Assembly (NCBI RefSeq): GCF_001921215.1
Contig: NZ_MSIF01000011.1
Coordinates: forward strand, 124,001-188,000
DNA from: Actinophytocola xinjiangensis
GTDB lineage: Bacteria; Actinomycetota; Actinomycetes; Mycobacteriales; Pseudonocardiaceae
Reading direction: 5' to 3'
DNA length: 64,000 nucleotides
Shown: positions 9,978-59,500 of the stretch, one piece after another
Layout of the letters: each line of letters begins with the position of its first letter
Position numbering within the stretch: the stretch's first letter is position 1
Program-made: the position numbers and the translations under genes
Notes under the pieces: generated by a model
What the model saw: only the letters and a program-made list of their open reading frames with translations
Databases searched by the model: none
Told to the model about the DNA's origin: nothing

Positions 9978-10640
9978 ATGCGAAGAATTCTCGCAGTCGT
10001 CGCTCTGCTGCTCACCTCGCTGCTCGGCTTACCGGCCACCGGTGGCGCCGAGGTCGCCGCCGAACCGCTGGGCAGCGGCGCCGTCCTGTTCAACCCGCTC
10101 GGCCCGGCCGGGCACTGCACCGCCGCGTTCGCCGCCGTCGACGCGCGCGGCCTTGGCCACCTGGTCACCGAGGCGTCCTGCGCGAACCTGACCTCGGCCG
10201 ACCTCTACACCACCGACTCCAGCGGAAAGAACGTCCTGGTCGGCAGCGTCGTGTCGGCCGGCGCAACCTACGCGGTGGTGCGGGTCAGGAACACCGCCGC
10301 GTGGGAGCTGGTGCCGTGGATCGACACCGGCACCGGGCGTGTGGTCCTCACCGGTTCCCGGGAGACCCCGGCCGGCGGCACCGTGTGCCTGGTCGACCGG
10401 CCGGCCGCGATGTCCTGCGGCCGGGTCCTGCTCAGGGACGACCCCGACGGCCCGGCACCGGGACTGACCAGGACCGACCTGTGCGCCTCGCCCGAGTCGG
10501 TCGCCTTCATCACCGCCGACCAGGCCCAGGGCGTGCCGGTCAGCGCGTCCAGTTGGTGCACCACGATCGCCGGCACCAGCTGGTTCGCGCCGGTCAACCC
10601 GATCCTGGAGCACGAGCAGCTGAGCCTGCTCACCGGCTGA
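9978..10640 (+). CDS. Secreted trypsin-fold protein lacking the catalytic triad (pseudo-streptogrisin)
   Basis: A 220-residue precursor with a signal peptide (RRILAVVALLLTSLLGLPATGGA) behind GGGGAG and ATG 9978. The mature part aligns by eye with streptogrisin-type S1 proteases. The TAGHC position reads TEASC, the catalytic Asp region reads GATYAVVRV, and the GDSGGP loop reads PESVAFITADQ, while disulfide cysteines and the closing SWFAPVNPILE motif are kept. All three catalytic residues therefore appear to be replaced. It may be a binding or inhibitor-decoy protein. The fold assignment is inference from weak similarity. The 3' end overlaps convergent cimA by 11 bp. Confidence 0.6.
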   Translation: MRRILAVVALLLTSLLGLPATGGAEVAAEPLGSGAVLFNPLGPAGHCTAAFAAVDARGLGHLVTEASCANLTSADLYTTDSSGKNVLVGSVVSAGATYAVVRVRNTAAWELVPWIDTGTGRVVLTGSRETPAGGTVCLVDRPAAMSCGRVLLRDDPDGPAPGLTRTDLCASPESVAFITADQAQGVPVSASSWCTTIAGTSWFAPVNPILEHEQLSLLTG

Positions 10641-12258
10641 CCGAGGCCGCCTCCACCCGCATCGCCTTGTGCGCCAACGCGTCACACAGCGCCAGCCAGC
10701 TGGCCTCGACGATGTTGCCGTGCACACCGACCGTGGTCCACTCGTGCTCGCGGTCGGTGGACTCCACCAGCACCCTGGTCACCGCGTCGGTCCCCGGCCG
10801 GTCGGCCAGGATGCGCACCTTGTAGTCGGACAACCGGACGTCGGCCAGCCACGGCAGGTACGGGCTCAACGCCTGCCGCAGCGCGGCGTCCAGCGCGTGC
10901 ACCGGCCCGTTGCCCTCCGCGGTGGCGATCACCCTGGTTCCGGCGACGTGCACCTTGACCGTCGCCTCGGAGACGATCACGCCGTCGAGGCGATGGTCGA
11001 GGATCACCCGGTAGGACTCGAGCGTGAACGGCGGACTGTCTACAGAGGACTCTTCGAGTTCCCTGCGCAGCAACAGTTCCAGCGAGGCGTCGGCCGCCTC
11101 GAAGGACCAGCCACGCGACTCGAGCTCCTTGACCCGCCGCACCGCACTGGTCAACACCGCCGGCTGGCCGGCCAGGTCCACCCCGAGCTCACGTCCTTTG
11201 AGCTCCAGGCTGGCTTGGCCGGCCATCTCGGTGACCAGCACCCGCATGTCGTTGCCGACCACCTCAGGGTCGATGTGGTTGTACAGCAACGGATCCACCT
11301 TGATCGCGCTCGCGTGCAGCCCCGCCTTGTGAGCGAAGGCCGACGCCCCGACATAGGCCTGGTGGGTGTCAGGGGCGAGGTTGGCGATCTCGGCCAGGGC
11401 ATGCGAGACCCTGGACAGCTCCGGCACGCTCGCGGTGGGTATCACCGGCATGCCGAGCTTGGTGACGAGGTTGCCGACGACCGCGAACAGGTCCGCGTTG
11501 CCGGCGCGCTCGCCGTAACCGTTGGCGGTGCACTGGACGTGGGTGGCACCGGCCTGCACGGCGGCCACCGAGTTGGCCACCGCGCACCCGGTGTCGTCCT
11601 GGCAGTGGATGCCGACCCGGTAGCCGGTGCGCGCGACGACCTCGCCGACCGTGTCGGCCAGCGCCAGCGGCAACTGGCCGCCGTTGGTGTCGCACAGCAC
11701 CGCCACGTCCGCACCCGACTCCATGGCCGCGGCCAGCACCCGCAGCGCGCAGTCCGGGTCGTGGGCGAAGCCGTCGAAGAAGTGCTCGGCGTCCAGGAAC
11801 ACCCGCCGCCCCCGCTCCACCAGGAACGACACCGTGTCGCGGACCATCGCGCACGCCTCGGCGACGTCGGTCCGCAGCGCCCGCTCGATGTGCCGCACGT
11901 CGGACTTCGCGACCAGCGTGACCACCGGCGCCTGGGACGCCAGCAGCGCCGCGACCTGCTGGTCCTCGGTGACCTTCGTCCCCGGCCGGCGGGTGGCGCC
12001 GAACGCGACCAGCGCCGCGTGGCGCAGCGTCAGCTCACCGGCGGCGGCCCGGGCGAAGAACTCGGTGTCGGTCGGCAGCGCCCCCGGCCAGCCGCCCTCG
12101 ATGAACCCGACACCGACCTCGTCGAGCAACCGCGCGACGGCGAACTTGTCGGCCAGCGAGTAGGTGATGCCCTCCCGCTGCGCCCCGTCCCGCAAGGTCG
12201 TGTCGAACACGTGGAACGAGTCGCCGAGCGGGGTCTCGGCGGGAGCCGTGCGAGTCAC
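10630..12258 (-). CDS. cimA: (R)-citramalate synthase-type enzyme
   Basis: The 542-residue protein has the HMGL-like TIM barrel (FDTTLRDGAQREG metal-binding start, VLCDTNGGQLP, HCQDDTGCAVAN) and a C-terminal LeuA-type regulatory dimer domain from about residue 400. Such enzymes condense pyruvate and acetyl-CoA to citramalate, giving 2-oxobutyrate for isoleucine without threonine deaminase. The GTG at 12258 has AGGAAGGA close upstream. Its 5' region carries a leader peptide, a long hairpin and a terminator (12299-12405), so attenuation by branched-chain amino acids is expected. The related 2-isopropylmalate synthase is less likely because of the length and the RREGITYS-type N-terminus of the CimA clade. 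Confidence 0.88.
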   Translation of the reverse strand: MTRTAPAETPLGDSFHVFDTTLRDGAQREGITYSLADKFAVARLLDEVGVGFIEGGWPGALPTDTEFFARAAAGELTLRHAALVAFGATRRPGTKVTEDQQVAALLASQAPVVTLVAKSDVRHIERALRTDVAEACAMVRDTVSFLVERGRRVFLDAEHFFDGFAHDPDCALRVLAAAMESGADVAVLCDTNGGQLPLALADTVGEVVARTGYRVGIHCQDDTGCAVANSVAAVQAGATHVQCTANGYGERAGNADLFAVVGNLVTKLGMPVIPTASVPELSRVSHALAEIANLAPDTHQAYVGASAFAHKAGLHASAIKVDPLLYNHIDPEVVGNDMRVLVTEMAGQASLELKGRELGVDLAGQPAVLTSAVRRVKELESRGWSFEAADASLELLLRRELEESSVDSPPFTLESYRVILDHRLDGVIVSEATVKVHVAGTRVIATAEGNGPVHALDAALRQALSPYLPWLADVRLSDYKVRILADRPGTDAVTRVLVESTDREHEWTTVGVHGNIVEASWLALCDALAHKAMRVEAASVSR

Positions 12259-12298
12259 GACAGATCCTTCCTGGGCTGGCAAACGGTTGGCAGGGCAC

Positions 12299-12326
12299 AA
12301 AAAAACCCCTCGCGTGCAGCGAGAGG
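12299..12326 (-). terminator. Intrinsic attenuator terminator of cimA
   Basis: CCTCTCGC and GCGAGGGG form an 8-bp stem (one G-U pair) with a 5-nt loop, followed by seven T. It lies between the leader peptide and the cimA ribosome binding site, where premature termination would switch cimA off. Confidence 0.85.
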
Positions 12327-12329
12327 TCA

Positions 12330-12364
12330 GCGCACCGGGTGTGTAGCGTCGCTACCCGGTGCGC
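12330..12364 (-). promoter_or_regulatory. Leader hairpin (pause/antiterminator element) of cimA
   Basis: A perfect 10-bp stem GCGCACCGGG / CCCGGTGCGC with an inner TAGC/GCTA stem. The leader peptide's last codons and its TAG stop lie within the 5' arm and inner stem, so ribosome position can melt or leave this hairpin. It directly precedes the terminator. Confidence 0.75.
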
Positions 12365-12405
12365 TCGGCGATAATGAGCAGAACTGCGGTGGTCACGGCA
12401 CGCAT
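12352..12405 (-). CDS. Branched-chain leader peptide of cimA
   Basis: The open frame from ATG 12405 encodes MRAVTTAVLLIIAERTG, with the run Val-Leu-Leu-Ile-Ile just before the hairpin. CAGTAT, a plausible -10, ends exactly 7 nt before an in-frame GTG at 12396, so a leaderless 14-residue version (MTTAVLLIIAERTG) is the likelier product. The same 7-nt spacing occurs at the ilvB leader. Ribosome stalling at these codons when Leu/Val/Ile are scarce would favour cimA expression. Confidence 0.8.
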   Translation of the reverse strand: MRAVTTAVLLIIAERTG

Positions 12406-12476
12406 ACTGCCACACCGCTCCCCGGCCGTACCAGCCCCCGGTCGCCCGGTCCCACCATTCGGGACGTACCCGCACG

Positions 12477-12522
12477 AAAAAAGACCGCGAGCACCGGGCC
12501 AACAGGGCCACGGTGCTCGCGG
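12477..12522 (-). terminator. Rho-independent terminator after leuB
   Basis: A 12-bp perfect stem CCGCGAGCACCG / CGGTGCTCGCGG with a GC-rich loop, followed by six T on the minus strand, 24 bp past the leuB stop. It separates leuB from the cimA leader promoter. Confidence 0.9.
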
Positions 12523-12545
12523 ACGGTCCTTGCTCCGGCTACCGG

Positions 12546-13595
12546 CTACAGCTCCACACCGGACGTCGGGTTGTTCGACGACACCAGCGCCGCCAGGCGG
12601 TCACCGATGGCGAACGTGCTGCCCGGCGACGGGTGGTCACGGGTGGCCAGGTCGAAGGCCACCGAGGCCTCGATCCGCCGCGCGGCCTCGTGCTCGCCGA
12701 GGTGGTCGAGCAGCAGCGCCACCGACAGCACCGCGGCCGTCGGGTCCGCCACACCCTGCCCGGCGATGTCCGGCGCACTGCCGTGCACCGGCTCGAACAT
12801 CGACGGGTTGCGCCGGGTGATGTCGATGTTGCCGCTGGCCGCCAGGCCGATACCGCCGGTCACCGCCGCCACCAGATCGGTGAGGATGTCCCCGAACAGG
12901 TTGTCGGTGACGATCACGTCGAACCGGCCGGGGTCGGTCACCATGTGGATCGTGGCCGCGTCGATGTGCTGGTAGGCCACCGTCACGTCCGGGTGCTGCA
13001 ACGACACCTCCTCCACCACGCGCGACCACAACGAGCCGGCGTGGGTGAGCACGTTGGTCTTGTGCACCAACGTGAGGTGCTTGCGCGGCCGGGTCACCGC
13101 CCGCGCGAACGCGTCCCGCACGACCCGCTCGACACCGTAGGAGGTGTTGACGCTCACCTCGGTCGCGATCTCGTGCGGGGTGTCCTTGCGCAGCAGGCCA
13201 CCGTTGCCCGCGTACAGGCCCTCGGTGCCCTCCCGGATCACCAGCAGGTCGATCTCCCCCGGGTTGGCCAGCGGACTGGCCACCCCCGGGTAGAGCCGCG
13301 CCGGGCGCAGGTTGACGTGGTGGTCGAGCTCGAACCGCAGCCGCAGCAGCAGTCCGCGCTCCAGGATGCCGCTCGGCACCGAAGGGTCGCCGACAGCGCC
13401 GAGCAGGATCGCGTCGTGCTGGCGCAGCTCGCCGAGGACCGACTCGGGCAGCAGCTCCCCGGTCGAGTGCCACCGCGTGGCCCCGAGGTCGTACTTCGTC
13501 ACCTCGACGTCGGGCACCACCTCATTGAGCACCTTGAGCGCCTCGGCGATCACTTCGGGCCCGATCCCGTCACCGGGGATCACCGCGAGCCGCAT
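12546..13595 (-). CDS. leuB: 3-isopropylmalate dehydrogenase
   Basis: The 349-residue enzyme begins [15 protein letters not shown] and has the NAD-dependent beta-decarboxylating dehydrogenase signature [27 protein letters not shown], with the substrate Arg/Lys/Asp residues in place. It oxidises 3-isopropylmalate to 2-oxoisocaproate in leucine synthesis. Start ATG 13595 has GGGAGG 7 nt upstream. It lies about 110 bp downstream of serA, the mycobacterial order (serA then leuB). Confidence 0.95.
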
Positions 13596-13703
13596 GCACA
13601 CACCTCCCGGAACAACGGGCTTAGTTGGTCACGCGAAGGTTACCCGGATGGTGGCCGAACACCGCTGCTGGCCACCCGACTAGGTGGTGTCGGCCGCCAG
13701 AAG

Positions 13704-15299
13704 TCACCCGAAATCAACCGCACGGATGAACGTGGCGCGCACAGCCGTGCCGATCGACTCCAACACCGACTGGTCCACCGACCGGTCCGCCCGCAGCAGC
13801 ATCAGCGCGTCCGAGCCGTCGGCGACCTGGCTGATCTGGGCCGCCTCGACGTTGATCCCGGCGCCGCCGAGCAGCGTGCCGACGGTGCCCATGACGCCCG
13901 GCCGGTCGGCGTACTCCAGCAGTAACAGGACGCCCTCCGCGCGCAGGTCGAACCCGCGCCGGTTCACCTCGACGATCTTCTCGACCTGGTTGAGGCCGGT
14001 CAGGGTGCCCGAGACGCTCAGGATCGTGCCGTTGGGGTAGCCCGCGCGCAGCGTCACCAGACTGCGGTAGTTCGCGCTCTCCGACTCCTTCTCCAGCTTC
14101 ACGTCGACGCCGAGCTCCTCGGCCAGACGCGGCGCGTTGACGAAGGTCACCGGGTCGGCGACGACACCGGTGAACACCCCGCGCATCGCGGCCAGCGGCA
14201 GCACCTGAACGTCCTCATTGGACAGCTCGCCGCGCACCTCGACGTTGATCGAGGTCGGCGGGGTGGAACTGAGAGCCGAGAGCACGGCGCCGAGCTTCTG
14301 GGTCAGCGGCAGGTAGGGCCGGACCTCCTCGCCGACCGCGCCACCGGCCACGTTCACCGCGTCCGGCACGAAGTCGCCGCGCAGCGCCGAGAGCACCGAC
14401 CGGGCCACGTCGGTGCCGGCCCGGTCCTGCGCCTCGGACGTCGAGGCGCCCAGGTGCGGCGTGACGACCACGTTCGGCAGCTCGAACAGCGGGCTGGCGG
14501 TGGTCGGCTCGGTGACGAACACGTCGACCCCGGCCCCGCCGACCCGGCCCTCGCGCAGCGCCTCGGCCAGCGCGTCCTCGTCGATCAGGCCGCCACGGGC
14601 GGCGTTGACGATCAGCACGCCCGGCTTGACCCTGGCCAGCTGCTCGGTGCCGATGAGGCCCTTGGTCTCGGGGGTCTTGGGCAGGTGGATGGAGATGATG
14701 TCGGCCCGGCTGAGCAGTTCGTCCAGCTCCACGAGCTCGATGCCCAGCTGCGCGGCGCGCGCGGCGGACACGTAGGGGTCGTAGGCGATCAGCTCGGTGC
14801 CGAACGCGGCGAGCCGCTGGGCGAAGAGCTGACCGATCTTGCCCAGGCCGACCACACCGACGGTCTTGCCCTGGATCTCCACGCCGGAGAAGGAACTGCG
14901 CTTCCACTCGCCGCCGCGCAGGCTCGCGTCCGCGGCCGGGATGCGGCGGGCCAGCGACAGCAGCAGGGCCACCGCGTGCTCGGCGGCGGAGACGATGTTG
15001 GACGTCGGGGCGTTGACCACCAGCACGCCGCGCGCGGTGGCGGCCGGCACCTCCACGTTGTCCAGGCCGACCCCGGCACGGGCGACGACCTTGAGACGGT
15101 TGGTGGCGGCGAACACCTCGGCGTCGACCTTGGTGGCCGAGCGGACGAGCAGCGCGTCGGCGTCGGCGACAGCGGCGAGCAGGGCGGCGCGGTCGGTGCC
15201 GTCGACGTGGCGTACCTCGACCTCGTCACCGAACACGGAGACCGTCGACGGGGCGAGCTTCTCGGCGATCAGGACAACGGGACGGGTTGACTGGGTCAC
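13704..15299 (-). CDS. serA: D-3-phosphoglycerate dehydrogenase
   Basis: The 531-residue long-form enzyme commits 3-phosphoglycerate to serine synthesis. Visible features are the Rossmann motif VGVVGLGKIGQLFAQRL, the catalytic Arg in NAARGGLIDE, the Glu/His pair ending in TPHLGASTSEAQ, then the intervening ASB domain and a C-terminal ACT domain (LLEYADRPGVMGTVGTLLGGAGINV) for serine feedback. This four-domain form is typical of actinobacteria. GTG 15299 was chosen, with GGAG 9-10 nt upstream. A perfect 16-bp palindrome lies 40 bp before the start. Confidence 0.95.
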   Translation of the reverse strand: MTQSTRPVVLIAEKLAPSTVSVFGDEVEVRHVDGTDRAALLAAVADADALLVRSATKVDAEVFAATNRLKVVARAGVGLDNVEVPAATARGVLVVNAPTSNIVSAAEHAVALLLSLARRIPAADASLRGGEWKRSSFSGVEIQGKTVGVVGLGKIGQLFAQRLAAFGTELIAYDPYVSAARAAQLGIELVELDELLSRADIISIHLPKTPETKGLIGTEQLARVKPGVLIVNAARGGLIDEDALAEALREGRVGGAGVDVFVTEPTTASPLFELPNVVVTPHLGASTSEAQDRAGTDVARSVLSALRGDFVPDAVNVAGGAVGEEVRPYLPLTQKLGAVLSALSSTPPTSINVEVRGELSNEDVQVLPLAAMRGVFTGVVADPVTFVNAPRLAEELGVDVKLEKESESANYRSLVTLRAGYPNGTILSVSGTLTGLNQVEKIVEVNRRGFDLRAEGVLLLLEYADRPGVMGTVGTLLGGAGINVEAAQISQVADGSDALMLLRADRSVDQSVLESIGTAVRATFIRAVDFG

Positions 15300-19307: not shown

Positions 19308-19343
19308 AAAAAACCCCCGCCGACCGATCAGGTCGTACGAGGG
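19308..19343 (-). terminator. Intrinsic attenuator terminator of ilvBNC
   Basis: An imperfect stem (CCCTCGTACGACC against GGTCGGCGGGGG, one bulged A) with loop TGATC is followed by six T. It lies about 75 bp before the ilvB start and after the leader peptide. Confidence 0.85.
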
Positions 19344-19345
19344 TC

Positions 19346-19387
19346 GCGCGTTCGACGCAGCCTGGGCTTCCTCAGCGTCGAACGCGC
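19346..19387 (-). promoter_or_regulatory. Leader hairpin of ilvBNC attenuator
   Basis: A 13-bp perfect stem GCGCGTTCGACGC / GCGTCGAACGCGC surrounds a 16-nt loop. The last six codons of the leader peptide and its TGA overlap the 5' arm, so translation controls whether this hairpin forms. The 3' arm lies immediately before the terminator stem. Confidence 0.8.
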
Positions 19388-19419
19388 TGGGGAAGTACGA
19401 GACCGGTCTGCTGGGGCAC
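19372..19419 (-). CDS. Branched-chain leader peptide of ilvBNC
   Basis: GTG 19419 opens a 15-codon frame, MPQQTGLVLPQRVRR, with Leu-Val-Leu in the middle. The -10 TAGCGT ends exactly 7 nt before the GTG, so this peptide is probably translated from a leaderless 5' end. Leader-peptide attenuation of ilvBNC is known in corynebacteria; here it is inferred from the architecture. Confidence 0.82.
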   Translation of the reverse strand: MPQQTGLVLPQRVRR

Positions 19420-56568: not shown

Positions 56569-59500
56569 TCAGTCACGCTGAAGTACCTCTCGAATGATGG
56601 ACCTCACATTGGCCTCGTCAGCGGGTTGTGCCGTAACGTGTTCGGGAGACAACTGAATACCGCTCATCCAGAGGGGCAGAGGGATCGGCCCGAAGAAGCC
56701 CCGGCAACCGGCGTTCGCCATTTCGCACACAGCGAGGACGGCGACGCACACGGTGCCAATTCCGACCCGCACGCGGGACAGATGAGGAGACACCTCGCGA
56801 TGACAGTCACTGCCCACGCCACCACCACGTTCGACCTCGGGCCGGCGCGCGCGCTCAGCTGCCGGGAGTGCGGCCACCAGGTACCGCTCGCCGCGGAGTT
56901 CGCGTGTGTCGAGTGTTTCGGCCCCCTTGAGGTCTCCTACGAGTTCGGTGAGATCACCCGTGCGGCCATCGAGTCCGGCCCCAACTCGATCTGGCGCTAC
57001 CGCGACCTGCTGCCCGTTCCGTCTGATGTGGACACCCAGCCGAACACCGAGCCGGGGCTGACCCGGCTGGTGAAGGCCGACCGGCTCGCGGCCGCGCTCG
57101 GCGTGAAGTCCTTGTGGGTCAAGGACGACACCGGCAACCCGACGCACTCGTTCAAGGACCGGGTGGTCGCCGTCGCGCTCGCCGCCGCCCGCCAGCTCGG
57201 GTTCACCGTGCTGGCCTGCCCGTCCACCGGCAACCTGGCCAACGCCGTCGCCGCCGCCGCTGCCCGCGCCGGCTGGGAGTCGGTGGTGCTGATCCCGTCG
57301 TCGCTGGAGCGGGCGAAGGTTCTCACCACCGCCGTCTACGACGGTGCCCTGATCGCCGTCGACGGCAACTACGACGACGTGAACCGGCTGGCCACCGAAC
57401 TCGCCGCCGAACACGAGGACTGGGCGTTCGTGAACGTCAACGTCCGCCCGTACTACGCGGAGGGCTCCAAGACGCTGGGCTACGAGGTCGCCGAGCAGCT
57501 CGGCTGGCGGCTCCCCGACCAGGTCGTGGTGCCGGTGGCCTCCGGCGCCCAGTTGACCAAGGTGGACAAGGGTTTCCGCGAGTTCACCGAACTCGGCCTG
57601 GTCGAGGCCAAGCCCTACCGCGTGTTCGGTGCCCAGGCGACCGGCTGCTCGCCGGTGTCCGCCGCGTTCAAGGCCGGCCTGGACGTGGTGAGCCCGGTGA
57701 AGCCGGACACGATCGCCCGCTCGCTCGCGATCGGCGCCCCCGCCGACGGCCCGTACGTGCTCGACGCGGTGCGCCGGACCAACGGTGCCGTCGAGGACGT
57801 CACCGACGAGGAGGTCGTCGAGGGCATCCGCCTGCTGGCCAGGACCGAAGGCATCTTCGCCGAAACCGCCGGCGGCGTCACCGTCGCCACGGCCAAGAAG
57901 CTGATCGACACCGGCCAGCTCGACCCGGACGCCGAGACCGTCCTGTTCATCACCGGCGACGGCCTCAAGACGCTCGACGCCGTGCAGGACAGGATCGGCC
58001 CGCGCGCCACCGTGCCCCCGTCGGCCGCGGCCGTCCGCAAGGCCCTGGAGTCCTGACCGTCCACGATCCGCGGTAGGCGGACCGCGCGCGTGGCCTCTGG
58101 TCGTCGCGCGTGGTCCGCGCTCGCCGGCGACGATCGCCGTGTCGCCGTGGGTGTCGGTGCGCACGATCACCGCGCCGAGGCGTTCGAGCGCCCGCAACGT
58201 CGTACGGCTGGGATGGCCGTACCGGTTGCCGGCGCCGACACTCACCACCGCGATCCGGGGCCGGATCGCGGCGAACAGGTCCGGCGAGGTGTACCGACTG
58301 CCGTGGTGGGGCACCTTGACCACCTCCGAGGACAGGTCGACGTGCGCGCCGAGCAGGCTGGCCTGGGCCGCCAGCTCCACGTCCCCGCTGAGCAGGATCC
58401 GCCCGGCCGGGGTGGCCGCGCGCAGCACCAGCGACGCGTTGTTGATCTCCGTACCCTCGGCGTCCGCCGTGGGCATCAGCTCCTTTCCTGTCGGGGACAA
58501 CACCTCGATCGTCAGGCCGGGCCACGACAGCTGGCGCCCGGCGTCCAGTTGGACGACCGGCACGCCGGCCGCGCCGGCCGCGTCCCGCACCTCCTTCCAC
58601 GCCCAGGCCGGTTCCCTGGCGGGACTCACGCCCACCGCGCCGACCTCCCGGTCACCGAGGACCGCGTCCAGGCCGCCGATGTGGTCGGCGTGCAGGTGGC
58701 TGAGCACGACCAGCGGCACCCGGGACACACCCAGCCGGTCCAGGCAGCCGGCGAGCGGCCCCGGTTCCGGTCCGGTGTCGACGACGACCGCCCGGCCGGC
58801 GTCGCCGGTGGCCAGCACGAGCGCGTCGCCCTGGCCGACGTCGCAGGCGACCATCGCCCACCCGGCCGGCGGCCAGCCGGGCGAGATCACCCGGATCGGG
58901 ACGACGACCACCAGCGTCCCGGTCAGCAGCGCGCCGACCAGCACCCGCAGCCGGCGGCGCCGTAACGCCGCGACCACCAGCAGCAGGCACGCGACCAGCA
59001 GCAGCCCGCCCCACCAGCCGTCGGGCCAGCCGATGGTGGCACCGGGCAGGCCCGCCGCGTGGCGGGCGACCAGGATCAGCCAGTCGGCCTCGGGTCCGGC
59101 CAGGCGCACCAGCAGCTCGGCGAGCCACGAGGACGCCGGGGCGACGAGCGCCGCCACGACTCCCAGCACCGTCGCCGGTGCCACCACTGGCGCCGCCAGC
59201 AGGTTCGCCAGCACGGCCACCAGGCTGACCTCGCCCACCATGCCGGCCACGACCGGCGCGGTCGCCAGGTGCGCCGCGGCGGGAACCGCCACCGCCTCGG
59301 CCAGCCCGCGAGGAACCCCACGGGCCGACAGACCCCGCGCCCAGCGTGGTGCGAGCAGCACCAGCGCCAGCGTGGCCAGCACCGACAGCGCGAACCCGAA
59401 GCTCACCGCCATCGCCGGATCCCACAGGACCAGCGTGATCACCGCCGCGCCCAGCGCCGGCAGCGCGGCCCGTTGGCGACCGGCGGCCAGCGCGAGCAGT

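Follow-up and report, generated by a model that had tools for sequence, protein, structure and literature searches.

A probable isoleucine-type leader-peptide attenuator upstream of the citramalate synthase gene cimA in Actinophytocola xinjiangensis and its relatives

We analyzed a 64,000-nt stretch of Actinophytocola xinjiangensis DNA (the window), in which serA, leuB, a leader, and cimA follow one another in this order on the minus strand; the features described below lie on that strand. The cimA gene (10630-12258) starts with the GTG at 12258 and is preceded by a Shine-Dalgarno-like AGGAAGGA at 12265-12272. Its identification as citramalate synthase, proposed in an earlier note made from the sequence, was confirmed by TIGR00977 with 580.8 bits against a cut-off of 450. 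The leuB gene ends at 12546, 5' of a strong stem with six T, which was assigned as an intrinsic terminator (12477-12521; 16 pairs in the inner stem of the fold, six T at 12482-12477). Because of this terminator, cimA probably has its own transcript, split from that of leuB at 12521-12477. As for ilvA in this organism, TIGR01127 yielded four matches, all below its cut-off.

Upstream of cimA, a -10-like box, CAGTAT (12404-12409), lies 7 nt 5' of the GTG at 12396, which begins an apparently leaderless leader peptide ORF (12352-12396) that encodes MTTAVLLIIAERTG and stops with the TAG at 12354-12352. An in-frame ATG (12405-12403), at the end of the span given in the earlier note, overlaps the -10-like box, and GTG 12396 is thus the better leaderless start. 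The control codons, ATT ATC for Ile-Ile, are found at 12370-12375. Hairpin 1 (hp1; 12329-12365), assigned from the fold and from covariation, spans the end and the stop codon of the ORF, and it is abutted by an intrinsic terminator hairpin with a seven-T tract (12299-12328; stem 12328-12304, T 12305-12299). The minimum free energy (MFE) fold of 12396-12259 contained both hairpins at -54.3 kcal/mol (z -2.32), and 4 of 200 shuffles were equally good. A leader peptide, a hairpin over its stop codon, and a terminator with seven T before cimA had been described in the earlier note, and all three are borne out by the sequence, the fold, and the conservation in 140 of 140 leaders reported below. The stem lengths given there, 10 and 8 bp, were not reproduced, as the MFE fold gives a 12-bp outer stem for hp1 and 10 bp for the terminator.

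In a scan of both strands of 10000-15000, the terminator of the cimA leader was the sole terminator-like site. The shuffled sequences had a mean of 0.8 such sites, so the scan by itself is not significant, and the comparative test is the stronger one for this leader. At the gathering score, Rfam gave no match in the leader; at E up to 1, three weak matches appeared, the best with 18.4 bits versus the 50 required. A T-box or other Rfam family was rejected because no match reaches the curated score.

For the comparative test, 150 genomes from the family of the source organism, Pseudonocardiaceae (own family), were searched, and cimA was present at E up to 1e-100 in 140 of them. The data set comprises 141 upstream regions, 30 taken from loci and 111 from fetched stretches, with one genome (G098) contributing two copies. 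The signature AT[CT]AT[CT], followed by an in-frame stop and then a T-run, was found upstream of all 140 first-copy cimA genes. The remaining region, that of the second cimA copy of G098 (L230), harbors a cobalamin riboswitch in place of the Ile-Ile leader. None of the 140 reverse complements, and 1 of 2800 single-base shuffles, contained the same signature. The first control Ile codon is ATT in 127 of the 140 leaders, and at least one ATT occurs in 139; within 30 own-family cimA genes, ATT accounts for 4 of 392 Ile codons.

The residue preceding Ile-Ile is Ile in 107 leaders, Val in 12, Leu in 2, and another residue in 19. These counts make the device Ile-type: the conserved control signal of the cimA leaders is Ile-Ile, and a neighboring Leu is rare in the own family. 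The name "leucine/isoleucine-type" given in the earlier note therefore stands for its isoleucine part, whereas the leucine part fits the source species, and Leu was rejected as a conserved control residue in the own family. The remark that a pair of Ile codons at the control position suits a gene of isoleucine precursor supply agrees with Ile-Ile as the conserved feature. Additionally, an in-frame ATG or GTG with [TC]ANNNT 6-7 nt before it was present in 119 of 140 leaders, compared with 2 of 140 for either of the alternative frames; this bias supports translation in the leader frame from a leaderless start.

Dereplication of the 140 leaders left 71 rows (alignment A1), in which 98.6% of the cells pair over both helices and 9 of the 20 pairs have changed on both sides. 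Six of these belong to the 10 pairs of hp1, where 97.2% of the cells are paired, and three to the 10 consensus pairs of the terminator, where 100% are paired. The A1 helices beat 500 of 500 shuffles on all five measures, in a control that ignores relatedness, and they also beat all six slid versions, which pair in 43-58%. An alignment of cimA leaders had been suggested in the earlier note as a check for covariation and conserved branched-chain codons; both hairpins covary, and the conserved codons are Ile-Ile.

In the 140 leaders, folded from the Ile codons onward, Ile-Ile begins 10-14 nt upstream of hp1. The leader stop codon lies 10-13 nt inside hp1 in 136 leaders and 2 nt before hp1 in 4. 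A terminator stem precedes the T-run in 140 of 140 MFE folds, and hp1 and the terminator have no pairing nucleotides in common. In these folds the gap between the two hairpins is 0 nt in 125 leaders and 1 nt in 15. The interior of hp1 varies from 11 to 30 nt, and the distance from the T-run to the cimA match from 10 to 121 nt.

A covariance model (R1) was trained on own-family sequences alone. In the own genome, R1 gave one match, at cimA (E 2.7e-20); the next had an E of 7, and no second copy of the element was found with R1 below that value. We then applied the model to named cimA loci, taking the 80 best among 584 confirmed ones. It matched 38 of these 80 at E up to 1e-4, always upstream of the cimA match and no more than about 200 nt away from it. 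The matched loci comprise 11 of 11 from Pseudonocardiales, a set that overlaps with the training family, and 27 of 69 from outside the family, with 42 of 69 having no match at this threshold. By genus or MAG name, the outside loci include Micromonospora, Nonomuraea, Planotetraspora, Cellulomonas, Demequina, Nakamurella, and Nocardioidaceae; the weakest is one Ilumatobacteraceae MAG. Ile-Ile was present in 25 of the 27, and the other two (L058 and L071), read by eye, have a split or single Ile. Leu-Leu-Ile-Ile was found again in Nonomuraea-like cimA loci.

At the level of the class, R1 matched 189 of 296 genomes (E up to 0.01) in a search whose strict filters miss weak matches. We searched 80 of the class genomes for both cimA (E up to 1e-90) and R1. 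Of these, 63 had cimA, and in 47 of the 63 the element was located on the strand of cimA, 4-215 nt upstream. The remaining 16 cimA genes had no close upstream R1 match. Two of them begin at contig ends (G162 and G225), and in at least 4 of the other 14 upstream regions (L337, L338, L347, and L350) a co-directional CDS seemingly ends close before cimA, as judged by eye. In the other element-less regions a simple ORF scan, which is no proof of absence, found no comparable leader. The four f2 genomes of the 80-genome set had no cimA at E up to 1e-90, and R1 matched none of them at E up to 0.01.

R1 also matched away from cimA. In the 80-genome set there were 31 such matches at E up to 0.005, and the gene was identified for 21: sixteen ilvB (by blastp to the own ilvB), two leuA, and three leuS (both by NCBIfam). 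Val is present in all of the ilvB leaders read, in nearly all as Leu-Val and often as CTC GTA, and the two leuA and three leuS leaders have Leu-Leu-Leu. By these codons, the identity of the control codons tracks the pathway of the downstream gene, with the RNA frame constant. Three g68 genomes carry an ilvB leader peptide whose sequence equals that of S. lividans IlvL, which makes g68 a probable Streptomyces. An f2 leader with LVVI (L291) has hairpins that abut without overlap, like those of the cimA leader. When 21 ilvB leaders of relatives were folded from about hp1 on, the gap was 0 in 19 and 1 in 2, and hp1 could be extended into the terminator by no pair in 20 leaders and by 1 pair in 1. 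In a 110-nt fold window, the same 21 leaders gave a gap of 0 in 13, 1 in 1, 2 in 1, and 9 in 1, and the hairpins were not separable in 5; the junction figure for ilvB is therefore window-dependent.

We interpret the cimA leader as a ribosome-mediated transcription attenuator that would respond to Ile-tRNA charging, a reading we hold at a probability of roughly 0.85; this figure covers Ile-responsive attenuation, not how hp1 spares transcription. An attenuator of the leader-peptide kind before cimA had been proposed in the earlier note, and the sequence and its conservation support it. Judging by the anatomy and by experiments on similar ilvB leaders, RNA polymerase would begin at the leader start codon with a ribosome behind it. 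With ample Ile-tRNA, the ribosome would reach the stop codon and cover the 5' arm of hp1; with hp1 blocked, the terminator would form and transcription would end upstream of cimA. With scarce Ile-tRNA, the ribosome would stall on the Ile codons without quite reaching hp1, which would fold, and cimA would be made for lack of termination.

The ribosome positions were modeled with the actual stop positions and on the assumption that 12 nt are blocked from the start of the A-site codon. When the A site holds the first Ile codon, all 140 leaders retain at least 7 hp1 pairs. At the second Ile codon, at least 7 pairs remain in 95 leaders and 4-6 in the other 45; at the stop codon, fewer than 4 are left in all 140. 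A model with one fixed stop position, from which 5 of the 140 leaders differ, gave an identical outcome. Being free at the first Ile codon and blocked at the stop, hp1 has the placement of an antiterminator that starvation permits and plenty forbids. Under constrained folding, the terminator formed in all 140 leaders whatever the ribosome state, and on thermodynamic grounds alone transcription would always terminate. How hp1 would prevent termination is the least certain step, because hp1 and the terminator share no pairing nucleotides. The fixed 0-1 nt junction suggests a steric effect, and our preferred last step is that the folded hp1, 0-1 nt from the terminator base, would prevent the final terminator pairs from forming in the polymerase exit channel.

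In the E. coli trp and ilv attenuators, the position of the ribosome on the control codons decides termination; the antiterminator uses a terminator arm, and the control codons overlap the first pairing region. Neither the arm-sharing antiterminator nor the codon overlap was seen in the cimA leader. A classical trp-type attenuator was disfavored, given that no conserved long helix was found to pair with a terminator arm and that the terminator is present in every modeled state; the sole contrary result is a weak loop complementarity, described below. The cimA leader does have three features of the ilvB type, namely pathway codons near the first hairpin, a hairpin at the stop codon, and a terminator before the gene. 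With no shared arm of the trp type found, we place it among the actinobacterial ilvB-type attenuators.

As far as the available text of the sources goes, the ilvB attenuators of Actinobacteria (ilvL of Streptomyces and ilvB1 of mycobacteria; PMC1262725, PMC8079986, PMC13236596) resemble the cimA leader in having a short, often leaderless ORF with branched-chain codons, a hairpin that closely follows the control codons and covers or adjoins the stop, and a terminator directly behind. The cimA leader differs in its gene, which serves Ile, and in its codons, Ile-Ile versus the Leu/Val of ilvB. The Corynebacterium ilvB-II motif and three-hairpin ilvBNC leader, in the parts of PMC10272879 and PMC11857589 at hand, likewise have a uORF over the first hairpin, a second hairpin that is the terminator, and hairpin bases that adjoin. 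In those systems, however, a GCC trinucleotide belongs to both antiterminator and terminator, or the P1 loop forms pairs with the terminator; in the cimA leader, the boundary overlap was not found and loop pairing is weakly indicated. The three leuS and two leuA_bact loci also have an amino-acid-run leader, of Leu in their case, a hairpin at the stop codon, and an adjacent terminator. The published LEU element of leuA is, by the accessible part of PMC1262725, a pseudoknot without an obvious terminator, unlike the cimA leader.

Experiments on ilvB leaders are described in the same partly available sources. In the tuberculosis bacterium, the ilvB1 leader is reported to yield a premature transcript, enzyme inhibition induces, and changing LVVI to AAAA abolishes induction; in the proposed model, the antiterminator is masked while the ribosome sits at the stop codon (available portion of PMC13236596). 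Terminator mutants of C. glutamicum ilvBNC raised expression 7-8 fold (PMC11857589, in part). A C. ulcerans ilvB-II reporter was unaffected by one Val-codon change, according to the accessible text of PMC10272879, a result that speaks against codon sensing.

Two alternatives concern the last step only. The main rival, possible in our view at somewhat less than even odds, is that hp1 acts as a pause hairpin that would hold RNA polymerase until the leaderless ribosome starts, with the stop/go decision being kinetic or made by elongation factors. In favor of it, hp1 is synthesized ahead of the terminator, a translating ribosome opens it, and the two hairpins are compatible in folding; a hairpin-made pause has been proposed for H1 of C. 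glutamicum ilvBNC in the available part of PMC11857589. A pure pause, however, needs no gap of 0-1 nt, yet such a gap is seen in all 140 cimA leaders and in 21 of 21 ilvB leaders when these are folded from hp1 on, and it contrasts with the variable hp1 interior and T-run-to-cimA-match distance.

The other, which we regard as unlikely, is a trp-like or Corynebacterium-like antiterminator pairing with a terminator arm that was missed or is weakly conserved. This is the textbook mechanism, and the consulted portions of two sources offer precedents: the C. glutamicum ilvBNC hairpins have a boundary trinucleotide in common (PMC11857589), and the P1 loop of C. ulcerans can pair with the terminator (PMC10272879). 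Between the hp1 interiors and the 3' arm of the terminator, complementarity was 5.63 bp compared with 5.34 for shuffled interiors, an excess of 0.3 bp above 100 of 100 shuffle sets, though a small one from 140 sequences that are related to one another. Moreover, in five own-genus ilvB leaders the 110-nt window gave a 5' part paired to the terminator. Against arm pairing, a column-pair scan of the alignment returned hp1 and the terminator as two 10-bp helices, with a next best of only 5 bp, and no conserved long helix reusing the terminator arms. Extension of hp1 past its own base was 0 pairs in 115 of 140 leaders and 1 pair in 25, boundary nucleotides common to both hairpins were not seen, and the terminator wins in every ribosome state of every leader.

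Two further readings would remove the sensor or the RNA. That the terminator is constitutive or merely tunes basal expression, with the peptide ORF being no sensor, is very improbable to us. It would agree with a terminator stable in all modeled states and with codon changes reported to be without effect in the S. coelicolor ilvB leader, a result taken to speak against codon sensing (cited in the available text of PMC1262725). The invariant Ile-Ile, the rare ATT, and the gene-matched codons nevertheless demand a reason, and a plain terminator is not expected to conserve them. Still harder to credit is a role of the inverted repeat at the DNA level, as an operator bound by a regulator protein, in place of an RNA hairpin. 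hp1 is indeed a GC-rich inverted repeat close to a promoter-like box; its arms, however, lie at a variable distance (interior 11-30 nt) and change in paired fashion, which favors the RNA hairpin.

Returning to the steric reading of the last step, we extend it only tentatively, and with considerable doubt, to a class in Actinobacteria. Its members would have a common chassis with codons for Ile at cimA, Leu-Val at ilvB, and Leu at leuA and leuS. The antiterminator would share no nucleotides with the terminator, and a hairpin able to fold only during the ribosome stall at the control codons, abutting the terminator base, would sterically block terminator closure in the polymerase exit channel.

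The earlier note had supposed that attenuators of cimA are not well described, and we found none in Rfam or in the literature searched, which consisted of main texts of mostly open-access papers. The Streptomyces tag of cimA is presumably SCO5529. In the parts of the sources available, neither cimA nor citramalate is named in the table of eight leader peptides of S. lividans (PMC8079986), the main text of the S. clavuligerus Term-seq study (PMC8269248), the 50-genome motif paper (PMC11109978), or PMC13236596. A Methanothermobacter paper has citramalate synthase, leader peptide, and attenuation among its terms, used apart from one another in its accessible text (PMC13158618).

The element is deeply conserved (140/140 own-family cimA genes and 47/63 in the class sample), yet it has no Rfam match. 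If our reading is true, a specific Ile sensor is added to the control of branched-chain amino acids in actinobacteria; the shared enzyme IlvB would be wired to Leu/Val codons, and CimA, the entry enzyme of the Ile route, to Ile codons. The fixed junction of 0-1 nt bears on the mode of action of those actinobacterial leader attenuators in which no antiterminator is visible. Branched-chain precursors feed the acyl units of antibiotics in actinobacteria, which makes the cimA leader a plausible engineering handle. The window also contains an ilvB gene, whose leader, at 19419-19308, has the same architecture.

At the terminator (columns 94-121) in the alignment of 71 dereplicated cimA leaders of the family (out of 140), the 5' arm, GACCTCTCGC, was almost invariant, and its 3' partners differed, pairing with it as G.U, A-U or G-C. 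The two hairpins of the cimA leader type were also present in the window's own ilvB leader, located on the minus strand at 19308-19419, with a GTG start at 19419, the control codons Leu-Val-Leu (CTC GTA CTT) at 19401-19393, and a T-run at 19313-19308. Beyond cimA and ilvB, the same architecture, a leader ORF with pathway codons, a hairpin at the stop codon and an adjacent terminator, was found with Leu-run leaders at leuS (L327, L329, and L333) and leuA_bact (L318 and L320) of actinomycete genomes.

In five own-genus ilvB leaders (L298, L301, L302, L305, and L307), the 110-nt minimum free energy fold paired the terminator arms with the 5' part of the leader and enclosed the first hairpin. This enclosing fold, as modeled, may represent an extra state of these leaders.

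The second cimA-like copy of G098, a family genome with two copies, had a cobalamin riboswitch (RF00174, 57.4 bits) occupying the expected place of the Ile leader. Additionally, the window harbors a SAM riboswitch (RF00162, 76.1 bits) on the plus strand at 56661-56788.
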